Of a DNA stretch of 64,000 nucleotides, positions 5,712-42,779 are shown in pieces (the first letter of the stretch is position 1; the number at the start of each line of letters is the position of its first letter). Made by a program: the position numbers and the translations under genes. Origin of the DNA: Streptomyces ardesiacus (GTDB lineage: Bacteria > Actinomycetota > Actinomycetes > Streptomycetales > Streptomycetaceae); the NCBI RefSeq assembly GCF_003112575.1, contig NZ_BEWC01000010.1, forward strand, positions 1-64,000, in the 5' to 3' direction. The notes beneath the pieces were generated by a model, which saw only the letters and a program-made list of their open reading frames with translations, had not been told where the DNA came from and ran no database searches.

Positions 5712-6494
5712 ATGCTCTCGGAACCACGCGCAGGGCGCCTTGCCGCCTGGGGAAATGCCCTTATTGCCCACATGGTCTCGCCGGACGACGCCGCGGTCGC
5801 GATCGTGGGCGAGGACGCGGTGCACCGGGTGGAGGGTCTGCCGGGTGAGGACGGGCCGGTCGGTCTCACGCTGGCGCTGGGGCGGCTGCGCGCGCTCGGG
5901 GCGCGCGGACTGCGGGTGGCGCTGCCCGCGCCGGGGCATCCGCTGGGGCTGAGCGGGCCGCCGGAGTTCAACGCGCGGGCGCTGGAGGCCGAGGAGGCGG
6001 TGATCTGCGAGGGGGCCGCGCTGGGGCTGGTGCCGGAGGTGTACGAGGCGGGGCCCGAGGGCGACGTGCACGTCGAGGTGGTGTGGCACTGCCTGCCGGT
6101 GCGGGAGGCGCCGCCGGCGGACGTGCCCTCGCTCGGTGAGGCGGAGCGGGAGCTGGCGGAGGCGCTGCGGGACGCGACGGAGACGCTGACGCGGTTGGAC
6201 GTCGCCGGGTCGGGGCCGGTGGCGGAGGCGGCGGTCGCCGCCTACCGGGCGCGGGCGGAACGCGGACGCGAGGTGCTGGCGCCGGGGTATCCGCCGCGGG
6301 CGGTGCGGGTGCTGGAGCTGGCGCAGCGGGTGGGGATGCTGGTGTCGCTGGCGTCCGGGAACGGGCACGGGGGTGCCGTGAGCGCGTCCGAGATGGCCGC
6401 GCGGGGGGATGCGCTCAGGCCGGTGGAGCGGGTGGCTCGGCGGGCGCAGGTCGCGGCGTACAACTCCGTTGTGGTGGAGCGGGGGACGCGGTGA
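5712..6494 (+). CDS. Conserved hypothetical protein, 260 aa
   Basis: I do not recognise a named domain. The product is soluble, with an alpha/beta-looking N-terminal half (a run of hydrophobic strands such as AAVAIVGEDAVHRVEG and ALGARGLRVALPAPGHPLGL) and a helical, Glu/Arg/Ala-rich C-terminal half. No signal peptide or membrane segment is visible. High third-position GC and good codon bias across the whole reading frame, plus the ATG after AGGGTGGGGG, support a real gene. It is divergent from the ABC ATPase and convergent with chpE. Confidence 0.75.
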   Translation: MLSEPRAGRLAAWGNALIAHMVSPDDAAVAIVGEDAVHRVEGLPGEDGPVGLTLALGRLRALGARGLRVALPAPGHPLGLSGPPEFNARALEAEEAVICEGAALGLVPEVYEAGPEGDVHVEVVWHCLPVREAPPADVPSLGEAERELAEALRDATETLTRLDVAGSGPVAEAAVAAYRARAERGREVLAPGYPPRAVRVLELAQRVGMLVSLASGNGHGGAVSASEMAARGDALRPVERVARRAQVAAYNSVVVERGTR

Positions 6495-40331: not shown

Positions 40332-40553
40332 TCAGGCCGATGAGGCCTTTTTGCCCCGGGTAGCCCCGCCACGCCCTCGGAGCGTGACTCCCGACTCACT
40401 GAGCATGCGGTGCACAAAGCCATACGAGCGGCCGGTTTCCTCGGCCAACGCCCGGATGCTCGCACCGGCGTCGTACTTCTTCTTCAGGTCTGCCGCGAGC
40501 TTGTCGCGCGCGGCGCCGGTCACCCGGCTGCCCTTCTTCAGAGTCTCGGCCAC
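40332..40553 (-). CDS. gbn: Gbn-like small GATC-binding nucleoid-associated protein
   Basis: The 73-residue basic protein has a Lys-rich N-terminus, a compact helix-turn-helix (YDAGASIRALAEETGRSYGFVHRML, in outline, about residues 28-52) and a basic tail TRGKKASSA. It matches SCO1839 of S. coelicolor, described as Gbn, a nucleoid-associated protein that binds the GATC core throughout the chromosome and influences development and antibiotic production. The start is GTG 40553 with GAGGAGG at proper spacing. Four CTCATG repeats lie immediately upstream and six GATC sites about 270-340 bp upstream. Confidence 0.88.
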   Translation of the reverse strand: MAETLKKGSRVTGAARDKLAADLKKKYDAGASIRALAEETGRSYGFVHRMLSESGVTLRGRGGATRGKKASSA

Positions 40554-40562
40554 CCGTGCCTC

Positions 40563-40616
40563 CTCATGGGAAGTGCGCTCTGGTACTCCTCATGATCACC
40601 CCTCATGGCGCTCATG
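40563..40616. repeat. Four CTCATG direct repeats before gbn
   Basis: CTCATG occurs at 40563, 40589, 40602 and 40611. The first overlaps the gbn ribosome site region; the others lie in its 5-prime UTR or promoter. The spacings are 26, 13 and 9 bp. The regular recurrence of a 6-mer suggests a binding site array, perhaps for autoregulation. Confidence 0.4.
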
Positions 40617-40822
40617 GCCACCCATTCGGCAAGGTCGATGAGGCAAGGATGTGACGACAGGAGCGGGCCCCCACATACGGAATCCGTGATTCCAGAGATT
40701 CGGGCGCGTTCGGCCGAACGGGTTTCTCCGCGTCATTCCAGGTCAGAAAGGCGTCGCGGCCGGGACCCCGGCAAAGGGGCCCCGGCCGCGAAATCGATGT
40801 AGGACACACCTCTTGATGAGGA

Positions 40823-40889
40823 GATCTCACACAGATGGTGGATCACGGATCGGCCGAATGATCCATACCGGTGGATCATTCATTCGATC
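40823..40889. promoter_or_regulatory. Cluster of six GATC sites with a 9-bp inverted repeat
   Basis: GATC occurs at 40823, 40841, 40848, 40860, 40874 and 40886. In DNA this GC-rich a 67-bp stretch would be expected to hold about 0.2. Two of the sites form a perfect inverted repeat, GAATGATCC (40856-40864) and GGATCATTC (40873-40881), separated by 8 bp. It lies just beyond the 3-prime end of the ABC-F gene, upstream of gbn. It is a likely Gbn site, with the repeat able to act as a terminator for the ABC-F gene. Confidence 0.55.
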
Positions 40890-40918
40890 AAGCAAAGGCG
40901 ACGCCCGGGGGGCGACGC

Positions 40919-42517
<1,599 letters not shown>

Positions 42518-42779
42518 GGTCAGACTCCTGGGCGGGTGGATTGGCGGGATGGGCGGCTGTGGAGGATCCCGCCGTCTAATGCACGAGGAGAATGGCCATG
42601 GGGGCCAGTCTAACGGGGCGGTGCAACCTCTTTTCCCGCGAGCGCGGCCGGGGCGGCCCGAGCGGTGCCCGTGCGTTGTCAGTGGCCGGTGCAAGACTGG
42701 GCGAACGAGTCGAAAGCGGCTCCGGCCGCGGGCTCGGTCAGGTCACGACGCACCACCGGCTCACAAGGAAGTGATCGGC

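Follow-up and report, generated by a model that had tools for sequence, protein, structure and literature searches.

In Streptomyces coelicolor the protein Gbn times sporulation and antibiotic production and has thousands of binding sites (Du et al. 2022, PMC9239103). No description of what sets the level of Gbn was found in the parts of the literature consulted. A dense group of GATC sites lies upstream of gbn in Streptomyces ardesiacus, and the question raised by this locus is whether the group is a site of high Gbn occupancy or an element through which gbn is autoregulated. A stretch of 64,000 bp (the window) from a Streptomyces-type genome of 7.85 Mb was used for the analysis, together with gbn loci from other Streptomyces, from other genera of Streptomycetaceae and from other families.

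GATC sites between gbn and the ABC-F gene

40332..40553, minus strand: gbn, 73 aa with GTG start, HTH_58 domain (PF19575, E=1.9e-33, 114.6 bits, residues 5-66)
40919..42529, minus strand: ABC-F ATPase gene with two ABC_tran stretches and ABC_tran_Xtn, its 3' end adjoining the array; start codon of the feature approximate
40823..40889, no strand assigned: distal Gbn array of six GATC, starting at 40823, 40841, 40848, 40860, 40874 and 40886
40856..40881, no strand assigned: perfect inverted repeat of 10 bp with a 6-bp spacer, arms GAATGATCCA (40856-40865) and TGGATCATTC (40872-40881)
40754..40791, minus strand: GC-rich hairpin of 16 bp (folded), between the array and the gbn promoter, with no U-tract

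The gbn product has the size and domain of Gbn (an HTH_58 protein of about 73 aa) and corresponds to the protein described as SCO1839/Gbn (PMC9239103). The gene was present in all 61 genomes of the genus, and its main copy has the ABC-F gene upstream in 141 of the 141 Streptomyces rows used. The hairpin is likely the terminator of the ABC-F transcript, as predicted from its position and fold; the consensus terminator scan did not include it among its calls, and a stem run of at least 8 within -262..-181 occurs in 128 of 141 loci. A direct repeat, GGCGACGC...GGCGACGC, lies at 40894-40915, directly past the ABC-F stop.

A second gbn-like gene occurs in the genome (contig C12:86345-86515; about 60% identity over 57 aa), and the 200 bp upstream of it hold one GATC and zero GATCWT. 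Three of seven second copies of gbn have GATCWT at most 200 bp upstream, an uninformative count. The search for Gbn in phages gave no match at E 1e-5, and the search of solved structures gave no relative (best E 0.68). Pfam HTH_58 scored above cut-off in the control genomes of Haloferax volcanii and Sulfolobus acidocaldarius; Du et al., using a model of their own, report zero hits outside Actinomycetales (PMC9239103).

The gap between gbn and the ABC-F gene is 365 bp long and contains seven GATC. As the original prediction had stated, six of them lie within 67 bp between the two genes (gbn -273 to -336, with the ABC-F stop at 40919); the seventh is at -44. This observation is confirmed. The sequence expected of a Gbn-binding region is present, namely the GATC core and the better GATCWT, which is found at 40860 and 40874 in the cluster and at the seventh site (40594). 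The accompanying claim that GATC is rare in this DNA, with about 0.2 sites expected in such a length, proved wrong: GATC is over-represented in the window (348 against 246 expected from dinucleotide shuffles), with an expectation of about 0.35 per 67 bp. Random placement of 348 sites in 64 kb gave at least six within 67 bp in 170 of 20,000 trials (0.85%). In the 864 kb scanned (the window and 800 kb of the 7.85-Mb genome) this was the densest cluster and the sole place with six sites; one other place had five. Density alone is thus an event of about 1% per 64-kb window, and conservation is therefore the stronger evidence.

The place with five GATC within 67 bp is the murE-murF junction (contig C10, about 310306; locus 6306-6372), the second-densest cluster in the 864 kb. 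It contains TGGATCATTCGG, a word common to the conserved distal block upstream of gbn.

The cluster had also been described as holding two GATC in a perfect 9-bp inverted repeat. The repeat is there, and its arms are one base longer, 10 bp. Arms of 10 bp were found in only three of 136 Streptomyces loci (the window, L081 and L094), and the perfect repeat was rejected as the key element on this count. Exact 9-bp arms with the 6-bp spacer occur in the window only (1/136); 70 of the 136 loci have arms of 7 bp or more that include GATC, and 49 have no arms at all. The right arm nGGATCATTCGG is present in 117/136; of the 111 loci with a left GATC nearby, 68 have a left arm fully complementary to it over 7 bp. 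Since pairing is often broken where the DNA word is kept, the repeat was not counted as structured RNA and an RNA hairpin was dropped. The pattern TGATCC-N4-10-GGATCA occurs at eight places in the genome.

Published Gbn binding and conservation of the distal sites

Gbn of S. coelicolor binds GATC, best GATCWT, in over 2,800 regions (Du et al. 2022, PMC9239103). At gbn the ChIP summit lies at -326 at 25 h and -324 at 48 h, with 67.75- and 58.18-fold enrichment, the highest values among the discussed genes of Table 1 of that paper, in a peak 547 and 530 bp wide (PMC9239103). A fragment from -561 to -239 of gbn with eight GATC was used for EMSA, and tethered particle motion was measured on a 685-bp piece of the gbn promoter that contains ten sites (PMC9239103). 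If the spacing is the same, the two summits fall at 40879 and 40877 of the window, within the cluster; the spacing from gbn to the cluster is the same in most Streptomyces loci, and the coordinate match rests on 136 other Streptomyces loci. The proposal of a high-occupancy site is therefore supported by data on the S. coelicolor ortholog (ChIP and EMSA) rather than on the S. ardesiacus strain, and this half of the idea had been published before for the S. coelicolor locus (Du et al. 2022). The words autoregulation, feedback and self do not occur in Du et al. (PMC9239103), and among the open-licence papers listed in literature searches no other addresses self-regulation of gbn in its title or the opening of its abstract.

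40812..40881, minus strand: conserved distal block of Streptomyces, holding the -273, -291, -298, -310 and -324 sites

Alignment of 136 distinct Streptomyces loci revealed two groups of GATC sites: three are widely retained (-310 in 134 loci, -291 in 133, -324/-325 in 117) and three less so (-273 in 69, -336 in 59, -298 in 21). The expected retention of a GATC cluster among relatives was thus found for three of the six sites (86-99% of loci) and not for the other three. The distal block has a mean column identity of 0.83, and 33 of its 70 columns, non-GATC columns included, reach 95% or more; the values are 0.48 (0 of 37 columns) just upstream and 0.58 (0 of 54) in the hairpin. The mean number of GATC in -380..-241 was 4.5 in Streptomyces loci, against 0.03-2.1 for eleven other palindromic tetramers. 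The region equivalent to the EMSA fragment (-561..-239) has 3 to 12 GATC across 141 Streptomyces rows, the commonest number being eight (28 rows). The set of 80 named loci consists of the top-ranking matches from a list of limited length, and close relatives are therefore over-represented in it; positions are possibly off by some bases in some loci because the start codon was extrapolated where the match began at residue 2-6.

Outside Streptomyces, 40 loci from 16 other genera of Streptomycetaceae (drawn from 51 genomes) were examined. The distal core GATCATTCG was present in 19 of them, from 6 of the 16 genera, and absent in 21. The prediction had named absence of the cluster from relatives that keep gbn as evidence against it, and in part this applies: these 21 loci retain gbn and the proximal site and lack the distal core.

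The proximal box and the predicted gbn promoter

40592..40597, minus strand: proximal Gbn box GATCAT at gbn -44 to -39; candidate -10 element and operator for autoregulation
40615..40620, minus strand: TGGCCA, proposed -35 element, 17 bp before GATCAT

The proximal box lies outside the interval of the original prediction. GATCWT was found at -39 to -50, in one orientation, in 136 of 136 distinct Streptomyces loci. It was also found in all 40 loci of the 16 other Streptomycetaceae genera, each with T(A/G)G(C/T) upstream at unchanged spacing. Beyond the family, 57 loci were examined from 92 genomes with a match; GATCWT occurs within -150..-1 of gbn in 49 of them, representing 22 of 25 families, and is missing in eight. 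In 200 shuffles of the DNA of these 57 loci the number with GATCWT averaged 8.4 and did not exceed 18, and other 150-bp pieces of the non-Streptomycetaceae loci contained it in 127 of 905 cases. Among control hexamers CATGWT was frequent (33/57), which we attribute to its overlap with GATCATG; fourteen others were found in 0-17 loci. From these comparisons the distal cluster appears limited to Streptomyces and some sister genera and the proximal GATCWT appears older, both points being new in this study.

In one family (f16) the ABC-F gene is more than 2 kb from gbn, and the Gbn boxes stay at gbn in six of six loci. In the 150 bp after the ABC-F gene, with the strand taken from tblastn, GATCWT occurs in 0/6 loci of this family, in 3/14 genomes without gbn, a rate near background, and in 1/4 with gbn near. 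The comparison supports the view that the proximal sites go with gbn and not with the ABC-F gene, as would be expected of an operator conserved with its gene. It speaks for the proximal tier alone, because the distal block was observed solely in loci with the ABC-F gene next door.

The motif T(A/G)GC was sought in the 34 loci (14 families, window included) whose forward GATCWT lies between -80 and -30. It occurs exactly 23 bp before GATC in 11 of the 14 families (one locus each) and in 0-1 at every other offset tested; 3/14 families lack it, the count over all rows is 25/34, and 0 of 1000 shuffles were as strong. In Streptomyces the motif reads TGGC in 134 of 134 distinct 100-bp leaders. It is because of this fixed spacing that GATCAT looks like a promoter -10 element. 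Such elements typically carry A at the second and T at the sixth position; GATCAT has both, and its first position is G, not T. In the f16 family the hexamer at the same spacing is GAAGAT (nAnnnT), which overlaps a reverse Gbn box in 6/6. T(A/G)GCnn reads as a poor -35 element with a 17-bp spacer to GATCAT. GATCAT is probably the -10 element of the predicted gbn promoter, and the transcription start would be near -32. In line with this, the 'native promoter' exchanged in the PermE overexpression strain was -157..+4 (Du et al. 2022, PMC9239103), a stretch that puts the promoter at the proximal tier. The genome has 16 occurrences of TGGC-N19-GATCAT, gbn being one; the pattern was judged too loose to define a regulon.

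The leader at 40561-40601 is near-invariant in Streptomyces and includes a repeated ATGAGGAG; 61 columns of the proximal 86 bp are at 95% or above. Many loci have an open frame far upstream of the gbn GTG, and a longer protein is possible.

Overall, our analysis suggests that the proximal GATCAT is a better-supported candidate for an autoregulatory operator than the cluster that had been reported, the operator most likely being at -44. No statement of a peak at -43 was found in the parts of Du et al. considered here (PMC9239103); the published summit is that of the distal tier. For the class Actinomycetes we propose, tentatively and at somewhat short of even chances, that the Gbn motif doubles as the -10 element of the gbn promoter, a switch by which Gbn limits itself and whose age would be at least that of the compared families; Streptomyces and some sister genera would have added the distal array to it.

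A two-tier reading, its alternatives and known systems

Our preferred reading, to which we give moderate confidence, is that the cluster is a multi-site Gbn-binding array in a two-tier self-binding region upstream of gbn, with the proximal box capping gbn synthesis and the distal array aiding this or storing protein. From the sites, their conservation and the binding reported by others in S. coelicolor, we infer a promoter, repression and a role of the distal tier as follows. The first and ancient tier would be a single GATCAT box located 39-44 bp upstream of the start codon, acting as the gbn -10 element. On this view Gbn and RNA polymerase would compete for one set of bases, and Gbn on the proximal box would keep RNA polymerase off the promoter and cap its own synthesis. 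The second tier, in Streptomyces and some sister genera, would add three to six sites between -273 and -336 where several Gbn molecules bind; at a distance of 230-290 bp, these molecules may raise the local concentration and make repression steeper, or the sites may store protein. Autoregulation of gbn is plausible from the arrangement of the sites, and its negative form, by promoter occlusion, is what we infer.

Published expression data bear on this reading. Promoter binding by Gbn has a weak suppressive effect overall, and gbn transcription rises in development while Gbn accumulates; the gbn row of Table 1 carries no fold change for expression (PMC9239103). Simple negative feedback does not predict such a rise. 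Since gbn transcription rises as Gbn accumulates and Gbn rarely alters target expression, other inputs must dominate at that time. One of them is HupA/HupS, as gbn is up in the hupA/hupS double mutant (log2 1.75 and 1.31; PMC11472566).

An alternative is a distal array that is only a reservoir or sink, in which dense GATC binds Gbn and gbn transcription is unaffected. Gbn peaks mostly come without expression change of targets, DNA is hardly deformed by Gbn binding (PMC9239103), and the array is at least 120 bp upstream of the proposed promoter elements, beyond the hairpin. Passive binding, however, leaves unexplained a 70-bp noncoding block in which non-GATC columns are conserved as well, and we regard this alternative as rather unlikely.

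Those columns could also mean that the block is a promoter, a small RNA or the target of another factor such as AtrA, with the GATCs incidental. Conserved non-GATC words such as CATCTGnGTGAG are consistent with this, as are an AtrA site predicted at the gbn promoter region, its sequence not given in the parts of the source considered here (PMC9239103), and the repeat centre CCACCGGT of the window, which is shared with the published ssgR AtrA element. CCACCGGT, however, differs from the block consensus, the block has no Rfam match (one chance hit, E 0.9), a sigma-70 consensus scan finds no promoter in it, and the Gbn summit falls here (PMC9239103); this explanation is improbable. Quite improbable, too, is that the block belongs to the ABC-F gene as a Gbn roadblock in its 3' region which, with the hairpin at 40754-40791, would help to curb read-through into gbn. 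The array does lie between the ABC-F stop and this widely kept hairpin (128/141 loci), but in the f16 family the sites stay at gbn (6/6) and none follows the ABC-F gene (0/6), a result that concerns GATCWT outside Streptomycetaceae and not the distal block. A chance cluster of a frequent tetramer, of which about one per genome would be unsurprising at 0.85% of 64-kb windows and which would suit the three sites kept in about half of loci or fewer, is contradicted already by the retention of three sites in 86-99% of the 136 species-level loci and by the published ChIP summit, and its probability is very small.

If the two-tier reading is true, the conserved overlap of operator and promoter would be a simple homeostat for Gbn and would offer a defined target for mutation. 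The fact that gbn itself carries the strongest enrichment in the published table would then have an explanation as well.

The closest known system is the upstream region of gbn (SCO1839) in S. coelicolor, which has the same gene, the same position relative to the start codon and a similar richness in GATC. It shows strong Gbn binding in vivo and was used for EMSA and tethered particle motion, in a species other than this strain (PMC9239103). Conservation, the -43 site, promoter elements and self-regulation, which are treated here, are not discussed in the parts of Du et al. considered (PMC9239103). Gbn sites are also known in the dcw cluster, where S. coelicolor has a Gbn peak at murF (SCO2088; summit -5/-10, Table 1, PMC9239103) at the junction matching the one described above. 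The dcw sites lie within or between coding sequences, whereas the array described here is upstream of gbn.

Fis, H-NS and IHF are self-regulating nucleoid proteins with strong sites at their own promoters. Gbn resembles them in that it binds the chromosome and has strong sites at the promoter of its own gene. It differs from them in being unrelated (HTH_58), and in that the putative operator is the -10 hexamer itself, joined in one lineage by a distal array.
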